Source: Agarophyton chilense (lineage: Eukaryota > Rhodophyta > Florideophyceae > Gracilariales > Gracilariaceae). From it: a stretch of 64,000 bases of DNA. The stretch spans positions 1,584,665 through 1,648,664 of the forward strand of contig JARGXX010000022.1 in the NCBI GenBank assembly GCA_030374765.1, written 5' to 3'. A program made the position numbers and the translations under genes. The notes beneath the pieces are model-generated. The model saw only the letters and a list, made by a program, of their open reading frames with translations. It did not search any database and had not been told where the DNA came from. This document shows, piece by piece, positions 44,617 through 61,591 of this stretch (the stretch's first letter is position 1; every line of letters begins with the position of its first letter).

Positions 44617-45363
44617 AATATATTGGTGTTTTGGAATGCTGAAAAATCAATGAATTTTTTGATGTCTGTGTCTGAGTTGAAAACAGGGCCGGCCAGACAA
44701 AAAATTGTAAAAATTATGCTGTGGCGCAGGTCAAGCAGCCAGACATGTATTTGATTTAATCTACCGAATAGCAGGCCTCAGTATACCGCAAATGCAAGTC
44801 TGATCGAGACTAGAAAAACGCGATAGAAGGTGCCAAAAATGGAGGTTGTCCGAGACAAAACGTGTGTCTGAGACAAAACGGGTGTCTGAGACACCACGGG
44901 TGTGTATGAACTTGTGACAGTTGCCATACCAAATTCATCTCTGGGCACTGGACTACACGTTTCACGGGCCTGTAACGCGGCTAAACACGTAGAAAGACGT
45001 GTGAGGGAGGATCTTAGAGAAATCCAAAGTGTACAGTTGAACATAGTGGCCGCTAGATGATCTGATCTAATTTTCGAAAAGCTTCGGATTTGGGTGTGTT
45101 TGGGAGGGGTTTTACAATCTGAGAAAAGGTATTTGCCGTGTGTGCGGTAGACGGCAGATGACTAGCTCGTGATTCACCGAACTGTGGACACGCACAAGTG
45201 GGGCTGAGGAGAGTGTGTTGGATGTGAATGATGTGTAAGAGTGCTGAAGAGGGACCGAGCTGGACACAAAAACCGTGTGATGATTGGCGTTTTAGCATGC
45301 CGAAAAATGTTTGAATGACTTGCAGTCCCTCAAGAAAAGAGGTGGGTTTAGGGGAAGATGCAC
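44617..45363. other. Spacer between E2 and the subtelomeric element
   Basis: No supportable gene. It includes a run of three similar units near 44850-44900 (GTCTGAGACAAAACGGGT-like) and one telomere-like GGGTTTAGGGG at about 45347, immediately left of the first long repeat. Confidence 0.5.
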
Positions 45364-46943
45364 CTATATATATTACAGGTTGTAAGTGTGGGCTGGCGCT
45401 TGGTAAAACGCAGTTGTCAGTAGCGCTTGGTAATTACATACACCAAGCGCCACGCGCTGCATTCGACGTATGTGCGATTTTGACCCCCTGGATGGAAAAC
45501 GTTGTGCTGGAGAGCGCGTATGACACATTGGCACGCTCAAAAAATCGTGGCTAATTGCGCTCAGGCGCTTCGTTCGGGTAACGTAGCGCGCGACTTGCCA
45601 GATGTTGGGGCGCAGCACCCATTTTCGCAATATTGGCTTTGGAAAAAATCATAAATTTTAGGCGCGCTGGGCTTTCTGCCAAATCCTGCGTTTGCACATG
45701 CTTTATTGTAACATTTTTGCTACACAACGTGGAGGCGTGCGTCGAGTGTGGCACTCAAAGGCGCTTGGTTTCAGCCACATCTCCGCTGCACAGTCGAGCT
45801 GTGTTGTAAGCTGGATAATGTGCGAAAATTATATCAAAAGAAAGGGTTAGGGTATGCATTTGCGCTTGGTTCTGTGGCGATTTCGTGGAGGCAGTTGGCA
45901 CATTGTCAGGCGTTTTGTATGTGCGTTTTTGGGGTCGTAGACGCGGGTAAAAAAGGTGCGTTTGCGCTTGGTTCTAGGATGGTTTTCATATCCGGCAACA
46001 CGGGGGGTCGATATTCGTTGGTATTGTCAAGTTCAATGTAGGTTGAGTGTGGTGAGTAGTAGGTCAGGCGAGTGCTGGCGCCACACTCTCAGCTAAAGAA
46101 GACGCGTGCAGTGCGTTTAGTGAGGTAGGGATGACGTATGCTAAACGATGCCAGGTAGAGTCTTATGACGTTAAGGTTTGTCCAACAGTGGCATCGCCAC
46201 AAAGTAGCTATCGGTCAGGGCCTACGGGAGTTTACGTTTTCGTACAGGAAACCATTGTGTACGGGCTTTTACAGGTTTCAGGGGTTTAGGAGTTTAGGGG
46301 TTTTAGGGGAAGCTTTACCTTTATGGGATTTTGAATTTACGGAGAGGAAAACATTGTGTCGGGGTTTTAGGGGTTTTACAGGTTCAGGGGTTCAGGGGTT
46401 CAGGGGGTTTAGGGGAAACTTTACCTTTATGGGATTTTTTATTTACGGAGAGGAAAACATTGTTTAGGGGCTGGTGGGCTTTAGGGGTTTTAGGGGAAGC
46501 TTTGCGTTTATTGGATTTTAGGGGTTTTAGGGGTCTAGAGTCGAGACGTCAAGTTCCAGTATAGTACGAATGCGTGGTGAACAGATTGTTTGAGGATGTA
46601 CTCGATATCTGCGGTGGTTGGATAAAGTTCTGTTTTGAGCGACCTGCATTCGATAAGTATACTGGGCTTTATGTGTGGGACTGATATAGAGAGTAGGTTG
46701 TTTCGTTACACTGTATTTTTGAGGCGGAGTTGGGGTATTTAGGGGCTGAGGTTGAGCTGGAGATAGAGTCGTTTGAATAACGCTTGTTGCTGGATTGGGT
46801 GTAATGTAACGGTCGAATATGGGGTGTTTGGCGTTTTTCTTAAGTATAAAGAGGAGGAAATGTGGTTTTCTGTGGAAAGGAAGAGAGTTGAAAGCAAAAT
46901 GGAGAAAGAAGAATGGGTGTTTTTTGTACCGGGTTGGAATCTA
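45364..46943 (+). repeat. Long direct repeat, left copy (DR-L)
   Basis: About 1.58 kb, near-identical to 59973-61552 at a constant offset of 14,609 bp. It starts CTATATATATTACAGG and ends GGTTGGAATCTA. It contains five direct and one inverted GCGCTTGGT motif in its first 610 bp, and degenerate telomere-like G-rich runs at 46260-46530. Small open frames (for example 45748-46041) are shared with the right copy but have no recognisable product. The helicase stop codon lies about 10 bp to its right. Confidence 0.93.
45396..45972 (+). promoter_or_regulatory. Cluster of GCGCTTGGT motifs in DR-L
   Basis: Exact copies at 45396-45404, 45423-45431, 45761-45769, 45862-45870 and 45964-45972, and one inverted copy at 45442-45450. 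The second and the inverted copy form a 9-bp-arm hairpin with a 10-nt loop. DR-R has the same set at +14,609. A single copy (61582-61590) is the last element sequence before the telomere array. The spacing resembles binding-site iterons; the binder is unknown. Confidence 0.6.
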
Positions 46944-46952
46944 AAATCGTGC

Positions 46953-49325
46953 TTAAATGAGTGTTGTGGTTGACTTCCACCAAGCTGCAAGGCGTAGAAT
47001 GTTGGGTACGGCAAAGTGGTTGTTGTGTGTTAACCAATCATGAAACATGGTGTCTATTTCAAGGTGGGGGGGTGAGGAATCTTGGGAGGATTGGGAAATG
47101 GAGTTGAACTTGGAGTGCATGCGGCCGTCAAAGAGGTGGAGTGCAATTTCGGAGCGAGTTTTGGAGCATGTTCGCCACAAGACCCATGCCAGTTGATAGA
47201 GCGAAATGAAGATGCAGTGTCTTGTTCCAAAAGTGTGCGGTTGAGAATGAGTTTTGAGTCCCTTGCAGAATCCGAGATGGCAACGGTAGCAGGTTCCTTG
47301 AGGTGATTTATCGAACCTGCAGTTGCGCGATATATGGTGCGGCGAAAAGCATCTGAAGCATCGTTGACGGGAATGGGGGCATGCATGAGTGTCCGTCAAG
47401 TGCACTTGCGTTTTTTCGTGCAGCAAGCATGGCACACAGAGAGGGGCAAGTCGGCGGGAGAGCTCCTCGAAGTGTGACACGATTTGTTGCGGTGTTTTTC
47501 GTTCCAAGGTGTAAAAGAAGGTGGCAGAGTGCGACTGAGATTCAGAAGGAGCGACAGTGGGGAATTGGGTCGCAGCGGATGGATGCGTGGTTGTCAGCAA
47601 TGGCGATGGAGTGGAGGTGGGGGGTCGTGGTGGACGACTGGCGTGGGGTTTGGGGCTTTGTGTTGGGCCGCCGTTGGTGTTGGTGTTTTGGTTGTTTAAG
47701 GATGTTTTGTTTGATTGATTGGGACCGTTTTTTGGCGGCGTGGGCGTTTGTGGGGAAGCGCTGAGTGACGGTGAAATGGATTGGGCGTGCTGAGAGGCAG
47801 AAGGGGTAGCGGAAACAAAGCTTCGTTCCGGGGTGGGAGAGGGGGAGACAGCTGCGATGCTATTGCAAATATCGCAATTAAGAACCGAAGGAGAGAAGAG
47901 ACAGATGCCTGGTTCTTTTCCGTCCATGTGGAAATAGAGGGCGTTCCTTCGACAAACAGATTTGCATTCGACCCAATGCTGCGATTCCAACCAACGCTCC
48001 GTGGAAAGTGCTTGGTTGTACATGCGATTGGGCTCCTCAAACGCATTTTTGTTGGATGAGGACGAAGAAAGAGTTTCCGCGGCGAGTTTGAAGTAGGGCT
48101 GGAAATAAATGGTGACGCAAGTGGATGGGTTTCCATCGCGGCCGGCCCTGCCGGCCTGTTGCGCGAGGTCGCAAAGACTCGCTACTCCACCAAAGTTGAA
48201 AACCAGGCGAACGTTGGGAACGTCGATGCCCGTACCAAAAGAAGAGGTGCAAACCATGAAGAGAATGTGGTTGGTTGTGGGTGCGCTGGAAGAAGGCGGA
48301 GAGTTCCAAAGGGTGTGAGCCCGGCGTTTACGAACATCGGAGAGACCAGAATGGTACAGGAGAACCGTGACAGTAGTGGATTGTTTAAGGGCACCAAAAG
48401 AAGAACGCGAAGCGGCGAGAGCTTCATGGACAGCTTCGGCAGCCGGGCGTGTTAACGAGAATATAAGAACGCGAGATAGGGTTGTGTCAGCCGACGAGTG
48501 AAGCAATCGAGCCACATGCTCTTGCATGATTGAGACGCCCAGCTGAAGCAGGTATCCAAACACATCCTGAAAGTGGCCATGAGCGGCGCGAAAGCGTGTG
48601 GCGCGCGAAGTGCTGGGGGCTGAGCTTAGGTGATACACGACAAAGGAAATGTTGTTTCTTGCAGTCGAAGAAGCGTATACATGCGCGTTCGGGATGTGCA
48701 GCTGCGACAGAAGAAGAGGGCGGTCGCGCGGCGGCACTGTCGCGCTTAAAAGCACGCGAGGGATCTTTGTGGGAATGTGGCCGAAGCAGTTGTGGAGGTT
48801 GGCCAAGCACGGGTGAAAGTGTTGCCATAAAAGAAACAAGTGACATTCATCGATGGCAATGCGGGCGAGGCGGTCGGCGGCGATCAGTCGCGTGGTGAAC
48901 TCTGTAAAAGAAGGAAGAGAAAGTCTTTCAGCGGAAAAGATGTAAATGTCGGCAAAGGAGTGCGATCCGGGAGGGGTGGTTGTACGAGAAGCACGAAGGC
49001 CGAAGAGCTGAGCGCGCAGTTCGTATTCACTGAGCAAGGCTGTGAGAGGGGTGATGAGAACGGTGGAGTATTTGCCCTTTTCCATGAAGACGGGGAGCAG
49101 AAGAGATAGTGTTTTTCCAGATCCAGTCGGCTGGAGTAGTAGCATGTTGGAAAGCCTGTTGTACACGGCCGCTGTGTTCACAAATTGTTGGTGGGACTTG
49201 AATAAAGCGGAGTCGTTGGAAAGTGCCTGTCTTAGTGCTCGGAGCATTTCTGATGTAATATGTTCGTAGGTCACAAGCGGTTGTTGTAAGAGAGAAGCTC
49301 CACCGCGCGGTATGGCGGCTGCCAT
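46953..49325 (-). CDS. RecQ-family DNA helicase, subtelomeric type, with C-terminal zinc knuckles
   Basis: 790 codons. Walker A is QPTGSGKT (residues 65-72), motif II is DECH (159-162), motif III is SAT (194-196), and motifs V/VI are FGTGID and QQAGRAGRDG (363-398). A Cys cluster follows at 454-487 (CKSVC, C, CDIC) and resembles the RecQ zinc module. After a Pro/Ser-rich linker comes a CCHC knuckle (656-669) and a second Cys pair (679-687). The family unwinds DNA 3'->5' with ATP, and relatives (telomere-linked helicases) sit next to fungal telomeres. It overlaps the upstream OrsD-type gene by 55 bp in another frame. In many fungal homologues the two are fused, so an intron or frameshift may join them; TTTTATGGCAG at about 49320 could be a 3' splice site. 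The listed ATG is the first in frame and is uncertain. Confidence 0.9.
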   Translation of the reverse strand: MAAAIPRGGASLLQQPLVTYEHITSEMLRALRQALSNDSALFKSHQQFVNTAAVYNRLSNMLLLQPTGSGKTLSLLLPVFMEKGKYSTVLITPLTALLSEYELRAQLFGLRASRTTTPPGSHSFADIYIFSAERLSLPSFTEFTTRLIAADRLARIAIDECHLFLLWQHFHPCLANLHNCFGHIPTKIPRVLLSATVPPRDRPLLLSQLHIPNAHVYASSTARNNISFVVYHLSSAPSTSRATRFRAAHGHFQDVFGYLLQLGVSIMQEHVARLLHSSADTTLSRVLIFSLTRPAAEAVHEALAASRSSFGALKQSTTVTVLLYHSGLSDVRKRRAHTLWNSPPSSSAPTTNHILFMVCTSSFGTGIDVPNVRLVFNFGGVASLCDLAQQAGRAGRDGNPSTCVTIYFQPYFKLAAETLSSSSSNKNAFEEPNRMYNQALSTERWLESQHWVECKSVCRRNALYFHMDGKEPGICLFSPSVLNCDICNSIAAVSPSPTPERSFVSATPSASQHAQSISPSLSASPQTPTPPKNGPNQSNKTSLNNQNTNTNGGPTQSPKPHASRPPRPPTSTPSPLLTTTHPSAATQFPTVAPSESQSHSATFFYTLERKTPQQIVSHFEELSRRLAPLCVPCLLHEKTQVHLTDTHACPHSRQRCFRCFSPHHISRNCRFDKSPQGTCYRCHLGFCKGLKTHSQPHTFGTRHCIFISLYQLAWVLWRTCSKTRSEIALHLFDGRMHSKFNSISQSSQDSSPPHLEIDTMFHDWLTHNNHFAVPNILRLAAWWKSTTTLI

Positions 49326-52300
49326 AAAAGCAGGCGGATGTGGATTGAAAGGATGAGAGAGGCGGCCAGGTTTAGGTTGATTTGAGAATGGGGGATCGCA
49401 GAGCGGTCAGTGGGAGGGGACGGGGTTGGCTGCGATGTATGGATGGAGCGCTTTGGTTCAGGTGTAGGTAGAACTGTGTCAGTAACCGGACGTTTTCTGT
49501 GGTGTTGTTGTTGTTGTTGTTGTTGTTTGGTGAGGGGAGCATTAAGAAGAAGACCGAGATACTGGTGCCATTTGCTGGACCACTCGCGATATTTGGAAAG
49601 TTGAGAGTGCTGCAAACCGGATATGTCATGTGGTGTACGAGCGTAAAGAAAAGCGGCGGTGTGCGCAGAGTGGCCCGCCTGGCCATGGGCAGTGGTCAAT
49701 AGCTCTTCCAAGATGTGATCGGCTACAGAAGATGCGGTGACATTGGAAACTGTGTTGGTCATTCCCACGGTGAAGTTTCTATAGTCGTTGAAGGATATCG
49801 GGAAACCGCGTTTGCTCAAGTGAGAGCTGATTATCGAGCGGATGGTGTTTGCGGCATAAGGAATTCCGCAGTTGGCGAACAGCATTTTCCAATGCATCTG
49901 GAAATAGTTTTCCCCGTGTAGGCGGCGGACGATATATGCTTCAAACGGACGTATCAGAGTCAAGTACATGAGCAGAAGACGGGATGTTTGGGCATCGGGA
50001 AAGCGAGCAATCAAAGTGGCGGCCCCTTTGCTGTTTCGCGTTTTCATGTAACGGCAAATGAGGACAGGCGATTTGTCGATGAGCATGAGACAACGTTGAA
50101 AGTGTTGGTCGTTGTGGATACGGTATGTCTCAATCTCTGTGCCGCGCGCAGGAGAGCCCGACGAAAGGTGTAGCGCAACCAACAGGCGTTCTTGGATTTT
50201 CTGTGCACATGAGAGCCACCTCGACAACGCATGCGTGAACATATCGGTGCCCAAAATGTCGGTTGTGGGCAGTTGTGTGCGGGGAAAGGTACCGTTTTGC
50301 TTGCGTTGCGGAAGAAACGGAGTGTGGTCGGTGTTGGAGTTGTGGAGCATGGAAGACGTGAGACAAGTGAAAACGAAAGCCATGTTTTGTTCGATAAATG
50401 GGCGGTTGTTGAGGTTGGTAAGGAAAGAAAAGCCTGGGCTTTTGTTGAAGGAGTCGTCCTGAAGTGAGTGTAGCGCGTTTGTGAAACCGGTTGGCAGAGC
50501 GTGGCCAAGAAGCAGGTCGTTGTGAAGAGTATGTTGTATTTCTTTGTGTAGAGTTAAAACCAAAGAGCCGACTTCTGAGAGGGCGAGGTGAATGTCACGC
50601 ACTATGCCGCAGGACGGGTGAACATCACAATTGTGGAAAGAAACGAACATTTCCTCGCGAGAGGATATGGACATTGCAAGCGTGAGTGTCTTTCTGACAA
50701 ACGAAAGGGCGTTGTTGGAATCAGCGTCGATTGCCGCGTCGATGGTACGCATGCGTTCTTGAACGTGAACTGTGCGTTCGGAAGCAGGGGTGGCAGGTTG
50801 CAACAGGGGAGAAGATTTGGAGAGCACGTGCAGTTCGTGTATGGCGCAGGCACAGATACCATATTGAAGAGCGGCGAGGAGGTGCGTCACATCTGAGGCG
50901 GCTGCAAAACGAAAGGAGGTATTGTTGGGGTCGTGAGAAACGACCGTGTCGTAAGGCTCAGGCGTGCGGTCAGACGGCAAGGGGGCAGCGATAGGCGGGT
51001 TGGGGTCGGTGCTTATCACGCTTGTGCAAGCAATGAAATTGCGAACGGAGAGGAGATCTAAAGACTGGTATGGCGCTAAAGATTGAAGCAAGAAGGGCTT
51101 GAGCGCGCTATGGACCGCTGGGCCATGTTGGGTTGGAGGAAAGGGGGCGGGGAGCTCATCAGAGGAAGACATGCGAATGGCATCCAACACGGAAGTAGTG
51201 TAGCAGTACATGAGGTCTGAGTCGGGTACGAGATGGGGGAGGTTTGCCCTTGTCCTGTGAGTAAACACAAGCAAACGGGAAATGTGTGAAGCGTAACGCT
51301 TTAGGGTCTCAGTGGAGACAGTTTTAAAAGCTGTGTCGGTGCGCTTGTTGAGGCGGTCCAAGAAAGCCAGGAAGGTCTTACTAACCAAAATGTTCACCTG
51401 AGAGAGGTAGTCGAAGATGTGGTGGGTGATGGTGCTTTCAGCGGATGTGGGCGTTGTGCCAGTTCTGGATAGTTGAGCCGCCACATCCAGATGAACATGA
51501 AGCGAGTGAAGAGCGATGTCAAACTTGGAAAAGGTGATGAAAGAATTCTTCTCCGAGTGGTGACGAAGCAAAGGGTCTGATTGCAAACAAGGAGCGCCGG
51601 TGTTGAACTTTTGTAAAAAGTGGTGAATGTGTTGAAGCGGGGGCTCGATGTCTTTGGCGGTCGTTGCCACTGGACGATGAGGTGGTTGGAGACAAACAGG
51701 CTGCGCGAGGGGGGTTTCAGGCCGTTCCGCAGGCGCCTGTGAAACCTTGAAAGTTTTGGACAAGCAGCCTATGGGTTGAGCATTGGTAACGGGGAATAAA
51801 CGGCGACGAACGCCGCCGTACACTGTCTGCAAGGCAATACGGCCCGACGAGACGGTACGGTCAAGGTGCGGCTGGGCAACCGCAGGCGACATGTTGTGGC
51901 ATTCGATCAGATGCGCTTGCAGACGAACGGGGTCGAGGTAGCAGAATTTGCAGAGCGGGCACTGATAGCCATTGTGAATGGCAATGTGTGCCAGGGGCGT
52001 GAGGAACGTAGAGGGCCCGGACACAAATTGGGCGTTGTGTTGGGGGCGATACTTTTGCCACACGGGGGCAACGGTAGAGTTGTTGCGCAAGGTGTGCACC
52101 TCGTGCAGGATTGCAATTGACATGGGACGTGCAATTTCCAAAGGGATGGAGTGCTGTTTGCGCAGGTGATGTTGGATTGCGCGGGAAGACGGCAGCCCAG
52201 ACTGGCAGTTGACGCACAACCGAAAGAACCCAATAGAATGAATACCCATATTCACAATGGTACCGAGTGCCATGATAAAAGAGGAAGAATCGTCGGCATC

Positions 52301-52585
52301 ATTCGCGTCGGTAACGAATAAGTCAGAATGGGGTTGAGCATGGGCGTCACGCGCCATGGGCGGAGGCGGTGGGGGGAGCAGGGGATTAGGGGGAGTGGGC
52401 GGTGAGATGTTCACCGCAGCCCTCGGTGGGCTGTGCACCGAAGAGGGGATGAACACGGGCAAGCCATGTTCGCCGGCGGAGGATAAGCTGTTTTGCGACA
52501 TATCTGAACGTGTAAGAGAGAGAAGAAGACGCTTGGGAGGATTGTTTTTGAAGCCGCAAAGAAAGACAAACACAAACAAACACAA
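49271..52585 (-). CDS. OrsD-type double zinc-finger protein with tyrosine-recombinase-like domain
   Basis: 1,104 codons; Met29 (52501) is an equally good start. Two C2H2 fingers, each CX2CX12HX4H, lie at residues 124-145 and 209-230, spaced as in OrsD (PF12013, formerly DUF3505). The last quarter contains SSGSPARGTE with Arg814, a Lys near 853 in a basic turn, DYR with Arg936, and GHSAHTAAFLY with His972 and Tyr981. The nine-residue His-to-Tyr spacing matches tyrosine recombinases (GHxxxxxTxxxY). A short poly-Gln run (about 1021-1027) and a Pro-rich tail follow. The protein could cut and rejoin DNA at element ends. It lies upstream of the helicase and may be read as one product with it. Recombinase activity is inference from motif order only. 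Confidence 0.82.
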   Translation of the reverse strand: MCLFVFVFLCGFKNNPPKRLLLSLTRSDMSQNSLSSAGEHGLPVFIPSSVHSPPRAAVNISPPTPPNPLLPPPPPPMARDAHAQPHSDLFVTDANDADDSSSFIMALGTIVNMGIHSIGFFRLCVNCQSGLPSSRAIQHHLRKQHSIPLEIARPMSIAILHEVHTLRNNSTVAPVWQKYRPQHNAQFVSGPSTFLTPLAHIAIHNGYQCPLCKFCYLDPVRLQAHLIECHNMSPAVAQPHLDRTVSSGRIALQTVYGGVRRRLFPVTNAQPIGCLSKTFKVSQAPAERPETPLAQPVCLQPPHRPVATTAKDIEPPLQHIHHFLQKFNTGAPCLQSDPLLRHHSEKNSFITFSKFDIALHSLHVHLDVAAQLSRTGTTPTSAESTITHHIFDYLSQVNILVSKTFLAFLDRLNKRTDTAFKTVSTETLKRYASHISRLLVFTHRTRANLPHLVPDSDLMYCYTTSVLDAIRMSSSDELPAPFPPTQHGPAVHSALKPFLLQSLAPYQSLDLLSVRNFIACTSVISTDPNPPIAAPLPSDRTPEPYDTVVSHDPNNTSFRFAAASDVTHLLAALQYGICACAIHELHVLSKSSPLLQPATPASERTVHVQERMRTIDAAIDADSNNALSFVRKTLTLAMSISSREEMFVSFHNCDVHPSCGIVRDIHLALSEVGSLVLTLHKEIQHTLHNDLLLGHALPTGFTNALHSLQDDSFNKSPGFSFLTNLNNRPFIEQNMAFVFTCLTSSMLHNSNTDHTPFLPQRKQNGTFPRTQLPTTDILGTDMFTHALSRWLSCAQKIQERLLVALHLSSGSPARGTEIETYRIHNDQHFQRCLMLIDKSPVLICRYMKTRNSKGAATLIARFPDAQTSRLLLMYLTLIRPFEAYIVRRLHGENYFQMHWKMLFANCGIPYAANTIRSIISSHLSKRGFPISFNDYRNFTVGMTNTVSNVTASSVADHILEELLTTAHGQAGHSAHTAAFLYARTPHDISGLQHSQLSKYREWSSKWHQYLGLLLNAPLTKQQQQQQQHHRKRPVTDTVLPTPEPKRSIHTSQPTPSPPTDRSAIPHSQINLNLAASLILSIHIRLLLWQPPYRAVELLSYNNRL
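49504..49527. repeat. Trinucleotide microsatellite (poly-Gln coding)
   Basis: A run of TTG units on the plus strand, encoding Gln on the minus strand within the C-terminal tail of the OrsD-type protein. Likely length-variable. Confidence 0.7.
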
Positions 52586-53470
52586 ACGAGTTTGGGAGCA
52601 TCAGCAAAATGGACGGGTTCACTGCCGATATAGCAGTATAAGTAGTAAATAGGTGGGGCGAGGGTAATTCGAGAAAGGCGGTTTGGTGTTTTGGGGGAGG
52701 GCGCGTGTGGCTGGCTTGAGCAAACGGCATACTGTAAAAGGGAACCATCAGGATACTATTTGGTATTGCAGGTCATTCATTCCCGGTGTATGACTGTGGG
52801 TTTGTGGGGAGGAGTGTGTCACAATAAAGCTCATTGGCCTCCGCCCCATTGAGGAGAGTGATTTTGTGTAAGGGGCGTGGTTTCCGTGGAAGGGGGGAGC
52901 GGGAAGGGGAAAAAGGGCAGCGCAGAGAAGAGATGGGGCTGCGCGGTGGTGGAGTCGGGTTGGGGGAGGGCAGAAGTTTTCAGGGTGGGTTTGTATTTGT
53001 GTGTAAATGGACGGAGGTTTAGAACGAGCTGGCGCGCAATCGGGTGCGCCAGCGGATGTTGTGCGGCAATGTGGCAACTTGTTGTGAAGCATGACGTTTT
53101 CGGAACGGCTAACTAGTGGCGGTGGTGGCGTATCGTACACACGTATTAGTTTGAGCACAAGCAGTGCTGCACCGCGGTTGAGCTCATATATGCATATGCG
53201 ACATGTTTGACCGTTGATTTTGGAAAAATGGTGCTACATGTGACATGGGTAGGAGGGGTGCTATGTGTTACAGTATGCGCACTGTGTAACGTTATGATGG
53301 TGTTTGGCAAAAGAAGTGAGATGTTGCGGGGCGTGGCAGTGGGTGCCGAAGAAGAAGGTTATAGGTTTTCTGTTTTTAAAACGAATGAAGGAAGAGAGTT
53401 TGCGCGTGGTTGTTCTTAGGAGAGAAGGTTTAGTTTTTAGTTGTGTTTTACTGAGAAAGAAAAGAAACAA
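52586..53470. promoter_or_regulatory. Intergenic region between the SET gene and the OrsD-type gene
   Basis: About 885 bp with G-rich plus strand (pyrimidine-rich on the transcribed side) and no convincing gene. The minus-strand frame 52748-53158 is low in complexity. It probably holds the SET gene 3' end and the promoter of the OrsD-type gene, including a pyrimidine-rich tract at 52860-52970. No TATA box was assigned. Confidence 0.45.
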
Positions 53471-54466
53471 CTAATCTACAAGATTCACATGAAAGGTCTG
53501 TGTTTGTGGTTTTGGAACCCTGGGCCAATGAGCGTAGTCGTTTCCATAGTCTATTAGCACTTCTTCTTCTCGCTCGATGGTTCGGGTGGCCACTATTGTG
53601 ATAAGGTGGTAGTCCTGGATTCCTGACTTTGAGTTTTTCAAAGTAGGCGAAAGGCGCGCTACTACATTTGGTGTGCGAGGGTTTGGGAGTACCTTGTCCC
53701 GTAAGGCCTGAATGTCGAGGTCCTCTGGGCGGTATTGGGCATCATTGATGATTCCGCCAACACAGAAAGGGGCAGGCGTGATCCACATGGAGTGGGTTCC
53801 ACGGTCTCCCGGGGTGGGCAGTCTGACAAAGTCCGGACATGTCACTCGGATTTCCATGGAAGTGGATTTGAAGCGCTCCACGGTGACGGCGAGCAAACCG
53901 TTGGCATACGAAGACTGTGTGGCGGAGCGTTTGGAGGGGTCGTGGTAGACGAGGGTTCCATAAAAGTAGCACACGGTGTCGCCTTCATTAAACTGGCGTG
54001 CGGCAAAGACACCGTCTCCCGCCAAGGGGTGTCGGATGTCGGACTTTTTGGTATACACTCCATGGGCATACCCTTCTATGGCCAGTAACGTAGCCGGATC
54101 GATCTGAGTGAGAAGGCCCTGTTTCTCTCGCGGCCATTCATGCACCGGTTTAGTGCGGCAAACGGCTGCAAACTCACGGTCTTTCCACAAGTTGCAGAGA
54201 ATGGAAGCGAGCGGCGCAGGAAAAATTTGGTACTGTGGCAGACCGGGAGGCGCGGTCCAAAGGTATTTCGATCGCAGGTCCGTGTTCGGTATTGAGCGAA
54301 CTAGGCGATTGAACTTGGTGATGAGATGGTGCGGCACTTCAATGTCGGTGCTGTTCTGTAAAACGGTTTTGATAAAGTGAACGACAGCATTGTGTTTTGC
54401 GTAAGCGTAACACACTGCTCTTTCTCGCACCCCAAAAAGCGTCTGTGACCAAAGAGCTCCATGCAT
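53471..54466 (-). CDS. SET-domain protein (putative protein lysine methyltransferase)
   Basis: 331 codons. The C-terminal half shows SET-domain landmarks. LAGDGVFA (148-155) corresponds to the GxG/GWG segment, GGIINDA (237-243) to the NHxx region, and TIEREEEVLIDYGNDY (296-311) to the conserved R-x-I-x-x-x-EE-x-x-x-DYG-x-Y block. NDA instead of NHS is a departure from histone methyltransferases, so substrate and activity are open. The N-terminal 120 residues are unrecognised. The gene overlaps the end of the DNA methyltransferase by 166 bp in another frame, which suggests fusion by intron or frameshift, or very tight packing. The family uses S-adenosylmethionine; a chromatin role near telomeres is inference. 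Confidence 0.8.
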   Translation of the reverse strand: MHGALWSQTLFGVRERAVCYAYAKHNAVVHFIKTVLQNSTDIEVPHHLITKFNRLVRSIPNTDLRSKYLWTAPPGLPQYQIFPAPLASILCNLWKDREFAAVCRTKPVHEWPREKQGLLTQIDPATLLAIEGYAHGVYTKKSDIRHPLAGDGVFAARQFNEGDTVCYFYGTLVYHDPSKRSATQSSYANGLLAVTVERFKSTSMEIRVTCPDFVRLPTPGDRGTHSMWITPAPFCVGGIINDAQYRPEDLDIQALRDKVLPNPRTPNVVARLSPTLKNSKSGIQDYHLITIVATRTIEREEEVLIDYGNDYAHWPRVPKPQTQTFHVNLVD

Positions 54467-55854
54467 GCCAAAGCGGTGGAACCCGTTCCGGCAAATAAAT
54501 CCACCACCATGTCGCCAGGCTGAGAATAGCGGCTTATGAGTTCCTTGAGTAGAGCACGACTCTTCTGCTCCGGGCGTACTTTTTCAGTGACGGCGTTGTG
54601 ATTGTTGGTGACAGAATGCAGGCGATTCCAACGCAGGGTCTCGCCAGCGGCTAGTCCCGGCACGTTATCAATCACGTTCTTGTAAGCCGGGTAGCGAGAA
54701 GGAACGTAGTTGTAGTTGACGAGGTTAACGCGAGCCAGGTTTTCATCGTGAGTGAGCCCCGTTTTGATGCCGTGAATGGCGTACTCGGTGATGGGCAACG
54801 GCGACGTTCGCAGCCCGCGGTGGCTCCCAGTAGGATGGGAGGCGGCGCGGACGAAAACCAACAGCACAGGGTCCACCTTGAACAGCGCAGTTTGGGACTC
54901 GGAAATGCTCTTGAAGCACGACAACCACGGCCTGAACTGGCGAATGGAGCAAAAGAGAATAAAGTGGCCGCCAGGGCACAACAGCTCGCCAATAACCTGC
55001 GCCGTGCGCTTCATATCGTCTTGGGAAATGGCGTCGTGGTTGCTGTTGTGGCGGCCAGCTAAGGAACGAATGTTGTAAGACGGGTCGGTAAGGACCAGTC
55101 GCACTGCTCCGACTGGAGATGAGGCGGTAGTTCGTTTGATAATATCCACCTGTACGAATTCTTTGAAATCGACACCGTAGAGGCGAATATGCTTTTCCAT
55201 TTCGTCCTCCGCCTCTTGTAGAGCGTTGAGAGTGGTAGTTTGGGTGAAGGAGTGCGGCGGGAGGACGCGAGTTTCGTTGACGTTGTAGGGAAGATTTGGG
55301 GGCTAGGGAGGAGGTGAGGGACCATCGGCGTTGGCGCGTTCCGAGGACGACGGTAGGGGCGCTCCCGGATCAGGCGGAGGTTGCTGCTGTGACTCGTTCA
55401 TAATGATGTCCAACAACTCGGCTTCTTTTTTGGCTATCTCCACGACCGGGTTGAGGGGTTGGCCCGGAATAGGGCCGACCATGGCCATTCGAATCGGGGT
55501 CGAAAGTGGCAGACCGAACGTCGTGAAGCGGTGAGGGTACACGTCGACGGTCGAGTTATACTCGAACTGCGTCAAAGATTGCCAGCGAGCGGTTTCATCC
55601 ATTTCGTATAGGAAGTCGTTGAACAGCAGGCGGTGAAGGTCGTTCAAAAACTCGGAAGCTATCACGCGTAGATTGCGGTCAACCTCGTCGGTGTGGGACC
55701 AGGCGACGCCGTCCACTTCAGATTGGACTTTGGAAGGCTTTGCCTCCTTGGCAAATGTGGTAGTTTGCGATAAAGGGGTATAGCCTTCCCCGTGGCGTTC
55801 GAGAGCGTGGTAGGTTAGGGTGTTGCTTTCGAACAAAATGTACGGAGCGAGCAT
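54301..55854 (-). CDS. Beta-class DNA N6/N4 amino-methyltransferase, interrupted by one in-frame TAG
   Basis: The longest Met-initiated piece is 54301-55200 (299 codons). The same frame continues upstream to Met at 55854 through a single TAG at 55303-55305. Motif IV is DPSY (residues 39-42 from Met 55200). Motif I is DLFAGTGS (234-241), preceded by the EKxRPEQK motif X region. This order (IV, TRD, X, I) is class beta (PF01555, N6_N4_Mtase), otherwise common in bacteria and phages. It would methylate adenine N6 or cytosine N4 in DNA. The N-terminal 183 codons (to 55303) are unrecognised and end in a Pro-rich linker. Methylation could mark element DNA; this is inference. Confidence 0.82.
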
Positions 55855-55869
55855 GTGCTCTAGTGAGTC

Positions 55870-56808
55870 CTACCCAAGATGGCGGCAGAACACATTCCAA
55901 GAGGTCACAAGCTTGTGCACGACAAATGAAATTCGCTCGCACGTTTCGTGCTTAAAGTTTTGCAACGAAGGCAACAAAGAGGTCGGGGTTGCAACGCCGG
56001 TATTGAGGCGTTGTTTCTTGGTCTGGCGCGATTTGAGTTTCTCGCGTTTGAGAGTGTAGATCATCGACAGGTACAAAACCATTTCAAAACGCGATGCCTC
56101 AACGGTAGTGGAGAATCGTGAGCGACTGTCCTTGGAAGTTTGCGACTGCAGAGGCAGAATGCGCGATTTGAGGACGGACGACAAGAGAGCCGTTTTCGGA
56201 ATGAGCAAGTCGACCTGACGGCTGGGGCGGCGGCGATTTGTAGGCGCATTGGAAGAACGAGCACTTGCACGGGTGGTACCATTACCAGCAGCAGAAGACG
56301 GTTGCTGCTCAGAAGTATTGCTTGAAGCTTGGATTTGGAGGTAGAGCTGGTACAAGTCCCTGAGACGCCGGTCGTCGCTACCATCGTCGAGGTCCACACA
56401 TCTGGCCATGAGGTACACCTGAGAAAAGTAGTTGTTTTTGAGGAGGCTGTGTTGTATCTCCGTGTTGGTGTACTTGCCGTGCTTTTCAGATGGCACGACC
56501 AAGGAGCAAACTTCCTCTGCAGCTGTCACAGAGCCTCGGTTCTGAACTGCGAAGTAGACCAAGTCCAGGTACTGGAGCGCGCGGGCGTTGGGATCATCGG
56601 GGCGCATGCGGGCGTACGCGTCGCGCAGCGGCAAGAACAAACCAATGAGACCTTCGGTGGTGACCATCTTGTAAGACGGAACTTGGAGAGATATTCGAAG
56701 TGTCGGTGGAGAAGGCTGGGGGCGGAGATAGAGAGATAGAAGGGGATGTGATTGAACGAAGAGAGACTTGTTCTTTTGAAGGGGAAATCGGGGGCTGAAG
56801 TTGTGCAA
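55870..56808 (-). CDS. Unknown protein, in frame with the methyltransferase
   Basis: 312 codons with no recognised family. Met47 (56670), in the context YKMVTTEGLIG, is a better start than the first Met, because the preceding 46 residues are Pro/Ser-rich leader. The centre has a Ser/Asn-rich linker followed by a basic stretch (NRRRPSRQ). The stop is TAG at 55870-55872, after which the same frame reads DSLEHMLAPY into the methyltransferase frame. So unknown protein, methyltransferase N-terminus and methyltransferase core occupy one 835-codon frame with two TAGs. It is the first minus-strand gene left of the palindromic intergenic region. Confidence 0.6.
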   Translation of the reverse strand: MHNFSPRFPLQKNKSLFVQSHPLLSLYLRPQPSPPTLRISLQVPSYKMVTTEGLIGLFLPLRDAYARMRPDDPNARALQYLDLVYFAVQNRGSVTAAEEVCSLVVPSEKHGKYTNTEIQHSLLKNNYFSQVYLMARCVDLDDGSDDRRLRDLYQLYLQIQASSNTSEQQPSSAAGNGTTRASARSSNAPTNRRRPSRQVDLLIPKTALLSSVLKSRILPLQSQTSKDSRSRFSTTVEASRFEMVLYLSMIYTLKREKLKSRQTKKQRLNTGVATPTSLLPSLQNFKHETCERISFVVHKLVTSWNVFCRHLG

Positions 56809-57108
56809 GGGCGTCTTGATTGAAGGGGTCGTGGGGTTTAGGGGTTCAAAGAGCGGGGCCGTTTAGGGGTTTGCGCAATGGTGAGGTCTTGGGTTTTAGC
56901 GGGTGCGTGTACGTCAAAGCCGTTCTTGATCGCAACTCGATACCGCAGCGGGCGCAAGAATCCAAAACAAGAAACACCGCTGAAACAACGACAAAGTTTC
57001 GAAAGGAGAACGTTGCAAAGCGGAGAGGACTGCAGAAGAGCGATAGCCGACAGCTCAAATACGGTCGGGGTCGGTTAACGTGAGATGCAGTTTGAGGGAG
57101 CAAAAGGG

Positions 57109-57255
57109 GGATTGCCTGCAGGCAATAAATTTCAACTGCGAATTACGGCTCATAATTTGCACCCCGATTGTTGATTTGCATTATTATTTCGCACTTTCGG
57201 GGTGCAAATTATGAGCCGTAATTCGCAGTTGACCAAAAGTGCCCGCAGGCAATTT
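57109..57255. repeat. 147-bp palindromic repeat, copy A
   Basis: A perfect inverted repeat of 32 bp (arms 57134-57165 and 57199-57230; first arm starts AACTGCGAATTACGG, ends TTTGCACCCC) with a 33-nt loop. The outer parts are GCCTGCAGGC on the left and GCCCGCAGGC on the right. Copy B at 57881-58027 has the same length. Confidence 0.93.
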
Positions 57256-57880
57256 CACTCAATTTGAGCAAACTCGTTTCCCTCCTACCAGGCGCCGTAC
57301 CAAGGCCATAGCTGCTCTATAGAGCCGATTCCCATGCCTGTGTCTCCCTCTAACGGCTTTATACCGGCGGTAACGAAGGTTATCGAACCAGGTTGGGGCT
57401 GAACGCCTTTTCTAGCGGCGGCCAACCTTAGATTACCACAGGCGAATAATGTCGAATGTGAATGTTGAACGAGCTCACGTAAACGATGTCGACAGACATG
57501 TTTGTGGAAAGACATGTTTTGGTGCACTTCCGAGAATTAGTAGCATCTGTATAGAGAGGAGAGTGGTGAGAAAGTTTGGTTTTTTAGAGTACTTGGTAGA
57601 AATTGAAAAGTTGAACGTATATTAGTTGTGACACGGTGCAGTGGAGAAGAAGCGCTGTGCGCGAGTGAGGGGGTTTAGTGAAACATCATTAGGCTTTCGG
57701 TTTTGCAATGAAGCTGAAATGGGTCTAAACAGGCGTATGTGAGATATGAGGGGTGTGGTGAGAGTTTAGGAAGGTGGCGCAAATGTAGGGAGAGGCGTGT
57801 GGGCGAAGGCAAAAAACGGGAGTGGGGGGCCCAGGGGGGTGTTTTAGAATGTGGGCAGACGTAGTCAAAAAGGGGGATTA

Positions 57881-58027
57881 GGATTGCCTGCAGGCAATAA
57901 ATTTCAACTGCGAATTACGGCTCATAATTTGCACCCCGATTGTTGATTTGCATTATTATTTCGCACTTTCGGGGTGCAAATTATGAGCCGTAATTCGCAG
58001 TTGACCAAAAGTGCCCGCAGGCAATTT
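57881..58027. repeat. 147-bp palindromic repeat, copy B
   Basis: Same sequence and length as copy A, same orientation, arms at 57906-57937 and 57971-58002. It lies 430 bp upstream of the ParB-like start. Beyond its right end the sequence follows the decayed copy at 8480. Confidence 0.93.
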
Positions 58028-58460
58028 GCCACACACAACCCCCCTAAAAATTATAAAATTTGGTGTCTGTGCAGCGGTTTTTTTGGAACGGATGGCGATT
58101 GCTGTGGCGTGTGTCACGCGTCGTTGGGGTTCAGGTTGCCACTACGCAACCACTAGGAGCCCTTTTTAGTTTTTCGCGTAAAGGACGGAGTCGAAGTACA
58201 CCCGTTTACCCCCGTTTTCCCCGCCCTCACATTCCGTCCCTTTCCTGAACTGCAGCCTCTGTCTTGATTTGTAAACGGATCAAGCGGGCGCCATCAAACT
58301 TCGCATCAAATCCGCACTTCTACTTGAATCATCTCTCCGCGGGCCTGAGTTTGGGATCTGCCGTATTTGGCTTTGTGTTCCGCCTTCATTCGCCCGTCTC
58401 ATAGTTTTCTTGTCACGCTCTTTTGCGCGCATCTCCCCGGTTCATATTGTTTGTATCGCA

Positions 58461-60032
58461 ATGCCATCGCGTGGAAAACATCAAAAGATGAAAGCAGCCG
58501 ACGTCGTCTTTCTTTTGGCGAAAGGCGAAGGGGGAAACCGCCGGCGCATCGGAACGGCTGTGTTGATGCCTGGTAGGAAGAAGGGGGAATTGTCCAGGGA
58601 TATGCATGGATCTAGCTTAAAGAGCTTTGAGGTGGAAGGTGAGGATTTGGTGAAAGTTCGCAGTGTTAAGGTCCTGCCGGGGTTTGACGACATTAAGTAC
58701 CCGTACCGATTTGGTGGTGTGGAAGAACCGCCTGCAACACTGGGTGGGGTGTTACCGAATTCATTTTATTCGTGGGACCTCGGTATGATGGAGGCAATGG
58801 AAACAACAGGGGAAGTGGTTGAGGTGGATTCAGATGAATCCGCTGATGCAGTCGGAAAGAAGAGGAGAAAGGCCCCACCCCCGTCGAAAGGTACTCCCGA
58901 CGTACAACGGCGTCCACCAACGACGCCCCGAGCGGTAAGTCGTAGGACGAGGTCCCAGAGCCGCCAAGGGCGCGCATCGCAGCGCTCGAATGCATCTGGT
59001 TCGACTGCAACTGTTGCTGGGGCAACTGTTGCCACCGTTTCTCCCGGTACAATTCGACGCACTGGGCGACCTCGTCTGAGGTCTCAACCAACGCCGCGCA
59101 GGGGCACGTCCGTTTCACGCGCAGTAACGCCACGCCCTCGTACGCCACCGGGCGGAACGATTGAAGTGGGTACTTCGGCCGCCAAGGCAGTGGAGGTGGA
59201 TGAGGACGTCATTTTCACGGGTATGAGGTCGGGCCCGTCGAACACCCGGTCATTGTCACAAGCGGTGGAGCCTCCAAAACAGGCTGTTGCGATTCCCACC
59301 GATAGCAAGATTGAGCTGAACCACTATTGGCAGGTGAATGCTACGGTGGATATCGGCAGAATTCGCTACGGGGAGCATCAAGTGCGGGCATTGAATGGGC
59401 AGCACAGGGAGAATTTGAAGGTTATGATGGAGCAGCAAGTTGTTTTAGGAGCGGTTGGGCGGGTGAGTGTTGCGATCGTGCTCGGCGGCAGATCAGTGGA
59501 TGAGGTTCTTCAAGGCAAGTCAAATACCTGTGACTGTCTGTTGGTGGATGGGCTTCATCGTTTGGTGGTGTACCAAGACCTGAGGAACACGTCCGAGAGG
59601 TGGAAAAGCATGACCCAAGTGCTGGACGTCGTTCTGTGGTTGCGACCGGACGGGAAGGACCTCACAAGGAAGGAGCGGTTGAGCATCGGTTGTAAGCTGA
59701 ACATCATGGCAAGCAACGTGTTGGCGATGTCGTTTGCAGACCGCGTGCACACCACCGTGTCGTTCATAATGGCGTCAGTGTTGGATGACAAAGGGAAGGT
59801 CAAGTCACTGACGTCATATGCTGTGGCAGTAGCGATGCAAGAGTTTATGCTACTCGGCACATTGGAAACGACGCAACTTCGGCGCTACGCCGACATTGCC
59901 CTTGCTCTTGTAAGGAGCCCGGAGTTGCTGAGCAACTTTGAGAAGGTGTGCAAAGAGGCGCCGAAGCTGGGTCTATATATATTACAGGTTGTAAGTGTGG
60001 GCTGGCGCTTGGTAAAACGCAGTTGTCAGTAG
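58461..60032 (+). CDS. ParB-like protein, 3' end replaced by long direct repeat
   Basis: The frame is open from 58410, but ATG at 58461 is preferred because the decayed copy preserves an ATG there (9578). Counting from 58410, residues 20-120 are an unknown N-terminal region, 130-300 an acidic then Ser/Arg-rich linker, and 305-390 a ParB-like fold. The ParB evidence is a Val-rich strand, QVR (324-326), and LLVDGLHRL (377-385), matching the GxHR box of ParB/Srx proteins. Such proteins bind DNA and CTP, or act as nucleases. A helical C-terminal region follows. The last 19 codons, from 59973, are read from the direct repeat, so the native C-terminus is lost. It points towards the telomere, opposite to the other element genes. 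Confidence 0.72.
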   Translation: MPSRGKHQKMKAADVVFLLAKGEGGNRRRIGTAVLMPGRKKGELSRDMHGSSLKSFEVEGEDLVKVRSVKVLPGFDDIKYPYRFGGVEEPPATLGGVLPNSFYSWDLGMMEAMETTGEVVEVDSDESADAVGKKRRKAPPPSKGTPDVQRRPPTTPRAVSRRTRSQSRQGRASQRSNASGSTATVAGATVATVSPGTIRRTGRPRLRSQPTPRRGTSVSRAVTPRPRTPPGGTIEVGTSAAKAVEVDEDVIFTGMRSGPSNTRSLSQAVEPPKQAVAIPTDSKIELNHYWQVNATVDIGRIRYGEHQVRALNGQHRENLKVMMEQQVVLGAVGRVSVAIVLGGRSVDEVLQGKSNTCDCLLVDGLHRLVVYQDLRNTSERWKSMTQVLDVVLWLRPDGKDLTRKERLSIGCKLNIMASNVLAMSFADRVHTTVSFIMASVLDDKGKVKSLTSYAVAVAMQEFMLLGTLETTQLRRYADIALALVRSPELLSNFEKVCKEAPKLGLYILQVVSVGWRLVKRSCQ

Positions 60033-61552
60033 CGCTTGGTAATTACATACACCAAGCGCCACGCGCTGCATTCGACGTATGTGCGATTTTGACCCCCTGG
60101 ATGGAAAACGTTGTGCTGGAGAGCGCGTATGACACATTGGCACGCTCAAAAAATCGTGGCTAATTGCGCTCAGGCGCTTCGTTCGGGTAACGTAGCGCGC
60201 GACTTGCCAGATGTTGGGGCGCAGCACCCATTTTCGCAATTTTTGCTTTGGAAAAAATCATAAATTTTAGGCGCGCTGGGCTTTCTGCCAAATCCTGCGT
60301 TTGCACATGCTTTATTGTAACATTTTTGCTACACAACGTGGAGGCGTGCGTCGAGTGTGGCACTCAAAGGCGCTTGGTTTCAGCCACATCTCCGCTGCAC
60401 AGTCGAGCTGTGTTGTAAGCTGGATAATGTGCGAAATTTTTATCAAAAGAAAGGGTTAGGGTATGCGTTTGCGCTTGGTTCTGTGGCGATTTCGTGGAGG
60501 CAGTTGGCACATTGTCAGGCGTTTTGTATGTGCGTTTTTGGGGTCGTGGACGCGGCTAAAAAAGGTGCGTTTGCGCTTGGTTCTAGGATGGTTTTCATAT
60601 CCGGCAACACTGGGGGCCGATATTCGTTGGTATTGTCAAGTTCAATGTAGGTTGAGTGTGGTGAGTAGTAGGTCAGGCGAGTGCTGGCGCCACACTCTCA
60701 GCTAAAGAACACGCGTGCAGTGCGTTTAGTGAGGTAGGGATGACGTATGCTTAACGATGCCAGGTAGGGTCTTATGACGTTAAGGTTTGTCCAACAGTGC
60801 CATCGCCACAAAGTAGCTATTGGTCAGGGCCTACGGGAGTTTACGTTTTCGTACAGGAAACCATTGTGTACGGGCTTTTACAGGTTTCAGGGGTTTAGGA
60901 GTTTAGGGGTTTTAGGGGAAGCTTTACCTTTATGGGATTTTGAATTTACGGAGAGGAAAACATTGTGTAGGGGTTTTAGGGGTTTTACAGGTTCAGGGGT
61001 TCAGGGGTTCAGGGGGTTTAGGGGAAACTTTACCTTTATGGGATTTTTTATTTACGGAGAGGAAAACATTGTTTAGGGGCTGGTGGGCTTTAGGGGTTTT
61101 AGGGGAAGCTTTGCGTTTATTGGATTTTAGGGGTTTTAGGGGTCTAGAGTCGAGACGTCAAGTTCCAGTATAGTACGAATGCGTGGTGAACAGATTGTTT
61201 GAGGGTGTACTCGATATCTGCGGTGGTTGGATAAAGTTCTGTGTTGAGCGACCTGCATTCGATAAGTGTACTGGGCTTTATGTGTAGGACTGATATAGAT
61301 TGTAGGTTGTTTCGTTACACTGTATTTTTGAGGCGGAGTTGGGGTATTTAGGGGCTGAGGTTGAGCTGGAGATAGAGTCGTTTGAATAACGCTTGTTGCT
61401 GGTTTGGGTGTAATGTAACGGTCGAATATGGGGTGTTTGGCGTTATACTTAAGTAGAAAGAGGAGGAAATGTGGTTTTCTGTGGCAAGGAAGAGAGTTGA
61501 AAGCAAAATGGAGAAAGAAGAATGGGTGTTTATTGTACCGGGTTGGAATCTA
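59973..61552 (+). repeat. Long direct repeat, right copy (DR-R)
   Basis: Near-identical to DR-L. It begins inside the ParB-like reading frame and ends GGTTGGAATCTA at the start of a third, truncated copy. The same GCGCTTGGT motifs and telomere-like runs (60876-61140) are present. Shared short frames are not considered genes. Confidence 0.93.
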
Positions 61553-61591
61553 TATATATTACAGGTTGTAAGTGTGGGCTGGCGCTTGGTA
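61550..61591 (+). repeat. Third copy of the direct repeat, cut after 42 bp by telomere
   Basis: The first 42 bases of the long repeat recur here exactly (CTATATATATTACAGG ... GCGCTTGGTA). From 61592 the sequence is GGGGTTTAGGGG and the telomere array follows. The last element motif is GCGCTTGGT. Confidence 0.95.

Follow-up and report, generated by a model that had tools for sequence, protein, structure and literature searches.

A family of chromosome-end elements in a genome assembly of the red alga Agarophyton chilense, with one fixed end apparently joined to truncated chromosome termini

The window analysed here (64,000 nt of A. chilense contig JARGXX010000022.1, C22 below) carries broken copies of what is probably a family of ~22-kb chromosome-end elements, each with one fixed end joined to a truncated chromosome terminus after 5′-YC; our confidence in this reading, including the enzymology suggested below, is moderate. 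The genome in which they lie is probably that of a fungus. The fixed end, the target preference, the polarity, the head-to-tail stacking, the variable truncation on the telomere side and the capping of cut leaders by telomere repeats can all be read from the junctions and copies themselves. Every element copy in the window is broken. Its features are:

45300..45364 (+): recipient subtelomeric sequence, with the element joined after ...GATGCACC (uninterrupted versions in C135 and C128/C129)
45365..46943 (+): leader of copy A, with constant end TATATATATTACAGG and six GCGCTTGG motifs (98% repeat; leader matches across the genome)
46263..46540 (+): degenerate telomere-like tract within leader A (tandem repeat and T3-4AGGGG cluster)
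46953..52618 (-): broken gene 1, with OrsD C2H2, recombinase-like region and RecQ helicase (Pfam, NCBIfam, PDB; comparison with L047)
53471..56895 (-): broken gene 2, with N-terminal region of unknown kind, beta-class N6_N4 DNA methyltransferase and SET (Pfam)
57109..58027 (no strand): repeat with 772-bp spacing and a palindrome of 57-bp arms, lying between genes 2 and 3, which are divergent
58404..59973 (+): truncated gene 3, ParB-like part, ~527 of 1316 residues, without the dioxygenase-like part (tblastn with L051)
59974..61550 (+): copy B, leader only, joined at GGGTC/T within gene 3 of copy A (C106 and C95 have GGGTC/TGTCGCA uninterrupted)
61551..61591 (+): copy C, first ~40 bp of the leader, joined at GGAATC/T
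61590..64000 (+): telomere repeats (T3-4AGGGG) up to the contig end, broken at ~63480-63608 (C22 ends with the window)

A reading made earlier from the sequence alone had noticed two ~1.58-kb direct repeats at an offset of 14,609 bp and a third repeat start running into telomere, and both observations hold: the repeats (45364-46943 and 59973-61552) are 98.3% identical, and the third start, at 61551, extends ~40 bp before passing directly into T3-4AGGGG repeats. The paired repeats are the constant first ~1.58 kb (the leader) of successive head-to-tail element copies on a chromosome end. TATATATATTACAGG occurs three times in the window, where 0.04 occurrences are expected, and 13 of the 16 window occurrences of GCGCTTGG are inside leaders (2.3 expected in the whole window). 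The same reading took the repeats to bound a unit, that is, a 13-kb cargo between terminal direct repeats that recombine. A repeat pair does exist, but just one end has the leader, and the distal end is truncated at varying points: copy A, which starts at 45365, is broken off within its third, ParB-like gene at 59973, where the right repeat starts, and the copy in C95 extends ~7 kb past the corresponding point. Because the right repeat interrupts gene 3, such a unit is rejected as very improbable.

Genome-wide, the leader was searched for without any constraint on where a match should start. Of 67 match rows, 48 start at query positions 62-66, 13 earlier (with the flank also similar) and six inside; the leader ends in the remaining 61 rows take 26 different values, with 24 at full length. 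From fetched loci, 36 distinct junctions were collected by a pattern for the element start. YC precedes the start in 31 of these, and TA number is also near constant (31/36). An uninterrupted version is known for 28 distinct positions, 26 of which end in YC (hand tally; p ~1e-20 against a 13.7% background); two mapped targets are not YC, and another has YC in just one relative. About two thirds of targets have a T directly after YC, so that 1-bp homology to the first T of the element is indistinguishable from a YC^T target. The recipient sequence of the window continues unbroken (CACC/ATTACGGGG) in C135 and C128/C129, where elements are joined 37 and 89 bp further out; in all, four attachment points (C28, C22, C135/C25/C90 and C128/C129) lie within ~126 bp of one ancestral subtelomere.

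The other end of the element is not fixed. Five distinct distal truncation points, in eight of 11 long distal matches, lead into a new start, and telomere repeats cap leaders cut at three different points (the window, C99 and C28). In C92, a 98-bp leader fragment is followed by non-element sequence. No copy shows a genuine distal end, so a missing gene could lie further out. On long contigs, 25 of 26 copies point in the same direction, all 25 at most 72 kb from a contig end; the exception, at 1.10 Mb on C4, is 660 kb from an end and in the opposite direction. Since the element is found at many contig ends and element-free sequence exists, a single copy at a single place is excluded within this genome, and the earlier suggestion of an element that is telomere-associated and amplifying, and has genes for transfer-like functions and for chromatin/DNA marking, is supported.

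The genes had been listed as separate; they belong to three fusion genes, which in the window are divided up by changes of frame, by stops and by truncation. The RecQ-type helicase, OrsD, SET and N6_N4_Mtase assignments stand, all above Pfam cut-offs, and the ParB-like one is weak. Gene 1 in its intact relatives is a single gene of 1876-1880 aa joining OrsD, a recombinase-like region and RecQ (whose kinship is also seen by sequence comparison); in the window its frame is split near 49358, as comparison with L047 shows. It has 43 match rows genome-wide, all at least 91% identical and 22 with an intact frame (hand count), and was found only in the telomeric family, lying near none of the 59 dispersed methyltransferase matches among the matches listed. 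Of the OrsD/tyrosine-recombinase-like gene proposed earlier, the OrsD part is borne out by Pfam. A tyrosine recombinase is possible by motif: R816, R938, H974 and Y983 of P0001 can be picked out by eye, with the box-II histidine replaced, and the region gave no match to profiles, PDB or other sequence libraries. An AlphaFold model of it from the single sequence was unusable (pLDDT 38). No gene 1 relatives were confirmed in viral contigs.

The intact relative of gene 2 is a beta-class DNA methyltransferase-SET fusion of 1141 aa (PF01555, E=2.2e-16). DPPY (motif IV) at residue 604 lies ahead of DLFAGT (motif I) at 799, the order of beta-class enzymes. In the window copy the frame changes once and is interrupted by two in-frame stops, and DPSY stands in place of DPPY; 21 of 126 rows have an intact frame, all of them telomeric (hand count). 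Gene 3 is intact elsewhere as a ParB-like and dioxygenase-like fusion with open frames of 1316 aa (9 of 119 rows intact; hand count). Its ParB-like part has a weak PHROG match (E=0.059), and a single-sequence structure prediction for that region was unusable (pLDDT 35). The dioxygenase-like part has HxD...H...R motif spacing and no significant Pfam or PDB sequence match; HTD, at 1107-1109, is kept in both the telomeric and the dispersed families (see below) and stands in place of the HxE motif of PE-type TET/JBP proteins, which is absent. No relatives of this part were confirmed in viral or prokaryotic contigs. Its spacing retains a glycine tied to 6mA use in CcTET. Two palindrome units lie between genes 2 and 3 in the window, and more in C106. 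dN/dS was 0.37, 0.42 and 0.53 in three comparisons and 0.89 for the C13 copy. Between telomeric and dispersed copies silent sites are saturated (ps 0.81 and 0.75) with lower pn (0.45 and 0.42), which suggests long constraint.

The dispersed family carries the same cargo module with a Plavaka transposase (PF18759, E=8.7e-22). Among the matches listed, this transposase lies within 15 kb of 38 of 59 dispersed methyltransferase matches, and together with the ParB-like gene near 27 of the 59; none of the 35 telomeric methyltransferase matches is within 20 kb of any of the Plavaka matches listed, which are close relatives. The transposase has no match in the window or inside the C95 element. A 50% identical Plavaka relic does lie upstream of the C95 junction. 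The right end of the dispersed element falls at the same position in 31 of 34 other rows; its left end is not fixed, and a search for its TIRs found none. One DNA/histone-marking cargo (methyltransferase-SET and ParB-like-dioxygenase), common to the telomeric element and a dispersed DNA transposon, is thus carried by two different and unrelated mobility engines in a single genome.

As a sequence of events, each copy would attach through its fixed end, TATATATATTACAGG..., immediately 3′ of 5′-YC (mostly YC^T) on a truncated chromosome terminus, the remainder of the copy lying outward with the chromosome end itself as its far end; this end would later erode to a random point, where telomere repeats or a further copy would form a new cap. 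The joint may be made by the element-specific recombinase-like/RecQ protein: RecQ would unwind or resect the chromosome end, and the recombinase-like part would cut at the fixed end and join this to YC. Together with the palindrome array between their genes, the methyltransferase-SET and ParB-like-dioxygenase proteins might set or remove marks on the chromatin of the element itself and so counter its silencing. More speculatively, it seems possible that this is a DNA-based, telomerase-independent end-capping transposon, whose recombinase-RecQ attaches the fixed end at YC^T of eroded termini; that the subtelomeric RecQ helicases known from many fungi are enzymes of such elements or their remnants; and that its writer (methyltransferase-SET) and its possible eraser (ParB-like-dioxygenase) make up a portable epigenetic module, exchanged between a terminal element and a cut-and-paste transposon.

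An RNA-templated route to the same anatomy seems unlikely. In a terminal element of the terminon or HeT-A type, an RNA ending in ...CCTGTAATATATATA would be copied onto the chromosome 3′ end, by a reverse transcriptase encoded distally or in trans. Terminons, in the available part of their description (PMC6431247), have a similar anatomy, with the 3′ end attached, the other end truncated, and head-to-tail arrays; genes 1 and 2 are in the sense orientation of such an RNA, and GR at its 3′ end could allow pairing with a YC end. However, gene 3 is antisense, TA number is near constant, neither the three large proteins nor the ApbA-like ORF matched a reverse transcriptase Pfam domain, and an Rfam scan of 45300-61700 gave no match to the hammerhead ribozyme. 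An ordinary subtelomeric repeat (Y′-like, with a telomere-linked RecQ), which passes from end to end solely through homologous recombination or break-induced replication, is hard to reconcile with the observed junctions and is, we think, quite improbable: homologous exchange would not put the same nucleotide beside 28 different targets, 26 of them at YC, or yield a single fixed start with many ends. Subtelomeric RecQ genes are nonetheless common in fungi, at least in the available portions of PMC7473861, PMC4522978 and PMC12857005, and six of the 36 junctions are common to different contigs, which makes homologous exchange (or allelic contigs) a further source of copies.

It is similarly doubtful, and perhaps a little more so, that a circular element was inserted by its recombinase at internal YC^T sites, with two junctions as in Cryptons or Starships, and later lost its telomere side by breakage. 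The recombinase-like motif set and the C4 copy far from an end would fit, but a second fixed end is not seen: there is one fixed start with 26 leader ends. Nor were the remainders of three interrupted sequences found further out in the window (up to 88, 2,295 and 1,456 bp tested), the 2,295 bp being the rest of copy A's gene 3, sought outward of copy B; of the fourth (copy C, 1,537 bp), only the telomere-like part was matched, to telomere repeats. A Helitron 5′ end (TCTATA) was also considered, and rejected since a final A is not a regular feature of the flanks; no Rep motif was seen by eye. A tRNA-derived SINE beside telomere tracts was rejected too (ARAGORN and Rfam negative in L034).

The element preferred here, with its fixed end joined at YC, behaves like rotifer terminons or HeT-A in end attachment and telomere-side erosion. 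It shares with them the fixed attached end, truncated telomere side, head-to-tail arrays, large size and several extra genes; it differs in that no reverse transcriptase was found in its three large proteins or ApbA-like ORF and no hammerhead ribozyme in the scanned 45300-61700, and in its target, YC^T in eroded DNA rather than telomere repeats. Its attached end is TATATATATTACAGG, not the hammerhead and reverse-complement telomere repeats of terminons. Fungi have been known to carry subtelomeric RecQ genes since at least 1998, and we know of no agreed role for these genes. A RecQ gene within an element with a precise attachment signature makes a role in capping worn ends testable; if it has one, this would be a chromosome-end element that works as HeT-A and terminons do but has no visible reverse transcriptase. 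Telomere-linked RecQ genes and yeast Y′ are alike in placing a RecQ-like helicase in multicopy chromosome-end repeats, but here RecQ is fused to OrsD and recombinase-like regions, the junctions are at a fixed nucleotide, and there is methyltransferase-SET and ParB-dioxygenase cargo; for Agaricus subtelomeric RecQ, the available text reports only the helicase core (PMC7473861).

In Mycosphaerella graminicola, a DNA methyltransferase gene is likewise amplified among telomeres; according to the part of the report available, this concerns a single-copy gene on whose loss cytosine methylation ended, with inactivation by RIP (PMC4522978). Here, by contrast, a beta-class N6/N4-type enzyme is fused to SET, with intact copies, within an element. 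The TET+ Plavaka transposons (Kojima, 2025; PMC12730594) resemble the dispersed sister family in combining a Plavaka transposase with a dioxygenase-like protein, and SET genes in transposons are already known there from HarbingerS/MuDR, in the portion of that paper available, which names no transposon-borne DNA methyltransferase-SET fusion; the word ParB is absent from its main text. The present cargo differs in its HxD rather than PE-type HxE motif, in the fusion of the dioxygenase-like part to a ParB-like one, and in the methyltransferase-SET fusion. Cryptons and Starships share a possible tyrosine recombinase, but here there is no profile match, a single fixed end, a RecQ fusion and concentration at chromosome ends. 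MoTeRs and FoTeRs are also chromosome-end elements, and FoTeRs adjoin telomere-linked helicases (PMC12857005, in its available part), but these are reverse-transcriptase elements inserted into telomere repeats.

The direct repeats that the sequence-only reading had taken to bound a ~13-kb unit are present in the window (45364-46943 and 59973-61552, 98.3% identical, at an offset of 14,609), as is the third repeat start it had seen running into telomere sequence: this begins at 61551 and continues for ~40 bp, followed by T3-4AGGGG repeats up to the window end, where the contig itself (C22) stops, at position 1,648,664. As bounds of a unit the repeats did not hold up: each is the leader of a telomeric element, with one start and 26 end values. 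When the genome (135 contigs, designated C; 79.8 Mb in total) was searched with a 1,651-bp query spanning the leader, 102 rows matched; 67 of them were counted as leader matches, the rest being telomere-tract, flank-only or very short. Forty-eight of the 67 begin at query 62-66 (the element start); 13 begin earlier because their flanks are alike too; and six begin internally, at query 922-938, where a telomere-like tract varies in length. The 26 end values come from the other 61 leader matches, 24 of them full length. Some contigs may be allelic, so that element copy numbers may include alleles twice. The presence of OrsD and Plavaka families suggests that the genome is fungal.

Junctions were collected from the loci fetched (designated L) by the start pattern, and their flanks told apart by the last 25 bases. 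Some of the 36 distinct upstream flanks lie within the element, in its leader, in gene 3 (ParB-like; in the window), or in gene 1 (OrsD-helicase; in C33); others include telomere-like tracts and further subtelomeric sequence. YC stands directly 5′ of TATATA in 31 of the 36, and the TA number is identical in 31 of the 36. Uninterrupted counterparts, tallied by hand, represent 28 distinct positions: 25 come from the 36 junctions, once seven that lack a counterpart and four that duplicate a position are set aside, and the remaining three are distal ones. The uninterrupted target ends in YC at 26 of these 28 (the exceptions are junctions j6, with TG, and j20, with AC); with YC at a frequency of 13.7%, such a result has a chance of ~1e-20. 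The 26 include j29, aligned by eye, and j33, with CC in L036 and AC in other copies; T comes next in 19. One ancestral subtelomere has attachments at four successive positions within ~126 bp, in the order C28, C22 (the window), C135/C25/C90, and C128/C129.

At three joints in the window the continuation of the interrupted sequence was not recovered on the distal side (up to 88, 2,295, and 1,456 bp tested); at the telomere joint, its telomere-like parts alone had matches there. The distal part of C92, used as a query, had 11 long matches (C92 included; weaker C98 rows, at 75%, excluded), of which eight are directly followed by a new start (in C76 after ~46 bp), with five truncation points (1945, ~2104, 3214 twice, 3833 twice, and 3990 twice); those in C117, C33, and C96 have no new start afterwards. 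Leaders cut at different points carry telomere-repeat caps in the window, C99, and C28. Other sequence lies past the telomere tract in C99 and C28, and past a further tract in C128/C129, so that these tracts are now internal. Of 42 gene-1 loci, 26 whose contigs have a known length >150 kb were used (16 excluded); 25 share one orientation relative to the nearest contig end, all ≤72 kb from it, the exception being a copy at C4:1.10 Mb.

Alone among the gene-1 copies, this one (C4:1093500-1110429; L053, L026) is distant from any contig end and opposite in orientation; it is possibly a chromosome-end fusion or an internal insertion. Its methyltransferase-SET gene is broken by a ~916-bp repeat (L053 4053-4969) also found in the window (28761-29676 and 38153-39072; 96-98%).

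The individual genes read earlier in this unit belong to three large genes that are broken in the window: genes 1 and 2 each contain a frame change (it splits gene 1), gene 2 also has two stops and reads DPSY, and gene 3 stops short at ~527 residues. The three occur in intact relatives on C106 and C95; gene 1 was read from C95 and genes 2 and 3 from C106, because C106 gene 1 and C95 gene 3 are broken. Gene 1 (1876 aa in L047, on C95) encodes, in order, OrsD (E=1.7e-7), a region with R816, R938, H974, and Y983, and C-terminal DEAD and Helicase_C domains (Pfam); the top PDB matches of the helicase are RecQ/BLM chains. By eye, the middle region resembles a tyrosine recombinase whose box-II histidine is replaced, although profile searches with this part gave no match. 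Gene 2 (1141 aa) matches N6_N4_Mtase (E=2.2e-16) and SET (E=1.3e-5) in Pfam, with DPPY at 604 upstream of DLFAGT at 799, the beta order of DNA methyltransferases.

Gene 3 (1316 aa), without a match in a Pfam scan, has a ParB-like DGLHR motif (residues 382-386); HTD (1107-1109), H1183, and R1199 lie close to the C-terminus. The latter residues are kept in a dispersed family, with the same cargo behind a Plavaka transposase, which has DGHHR in place of DGLHR. We read the C-terminal part as a putative 2OG-Fe(II) dioxygenase. In CcTET, Gly331 is linked to 6mA and Asp337 is needed for 5mC (PMC12730594, excerpt); aligned on HxD by spacing alone, gene 3 has a glycine (G1112) at the Gly331 position and R1118 at that of Asp337. 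The C95 copy continues for ~5 kb more past gene 3, including an ApbA-like ORF with a weak ApbA_C match (E=0.0021, under the Pfam cut-off). Elsewhere, C21:638388-667070 holds six ParB-like gene copies spaced 4.8-5.6 kb apart, apparently because part of the element was amplified in tandem there.

A methyltransferase search of the genome gave 126 rows, of which 94 were used (32 second pieces, short or broken rows excluded). Thirty-five of these are telomeric, at 89-100% identity except for one at 79%, and 59 are dispersed (~46-54%). Gene 1 lies ≤4 kb from at least 32 of the 35 telomeric matches and near none of the 59 dispersed ones, among the matches listed. At least 37 of the dispersed matches have a ParB-like gene ≤6 kb away on the opposite strand, at least 38 a Plavaka transposase ≤15 kb away, and at least 27 both. 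The dispersed copy on C12 contains, in order:

Plavaka transposase
gene 2
palindromic region
gene 3 (two stops)
ApbA-like gene

It is colinear with the telomeric copy starting at gene 2, and the ApbA-like proteins of the two are 39% identical. Between families, identity is 38% for gene 2 and 56% for the dioxygenase-like part, with saturation at silent sites and none at replacement sites. Because 31 of 34 other rows of the dispersed family stop at one place, it has a fixed right end. The telomeric family and the dispersed Plavaka family carry one cargo. On C95, a decayed Plavaka transposase (L047 7-1593; 50% identical to that of C12) adjoins the telomeric element start on its upstream side.

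Among the large genes, gene 1 alone is confined to the telomeric family (among the matches listed). Most likely, its protein would join the leader end to the YC of an eroded terminus; the RecQ part may resect or unwind this terminus, and cutting at TATATATA may be the work of the recombinase-like part. Candidate binding sites are the six GCGCTTGG motifs of each leader and the array of palindromes next to gene 3. That the attached end is instead made by an RNA-templated route seems to us rather unlikely; this alternative stands because the true distal end of the element was not seen in the copies examined.

SET genes occur in HarbingerS and MuDR transposons (PMC12730594), and a DNA methyltransferase gene is amplified at telomeres (PMC4522978), both according to excerpts; further literature for comparison, likewise in excerpt, is PMC7473861, PMC12857005, PMC6431247, and PMC3212892. 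In their titles and opening lines, the abstracts of the open-access papers listed describe no telomeric element with a recombinase-RecQ fusion and no transposon-borne DNA methyltransferase-SET fusion, which is weak evidence.

Non-telomeric sequence lies immediately past telomere tracts at L034 1-655 (on C99), L013/L014, L028, and window ~63480-63608. A GTGTGCKGCGTCGC-like stretch recurs among sequences beyond the tracts, and in C99 a ~350-bp unit occurs twice that contains a tRNA-like stretch (TTTAGCTCAGTGGTTAA...GGGTTCAATTCCC), in which ARAGORN and Rfam gave no tRNA. Perhaps the sequence beyond the tracts is a short telomere-inserting element.

Outside the element, the window contains a 5.5-kb repeat pair (11741-17284 and 39073-44616, 99.2% identical). 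It also has a decayed ParB-like N-terminus relic (48-68% identity, by piece) and a palindromic-repeat relic, at 20400-21180 (+) and 7989-8653, which are apparently an older related element.
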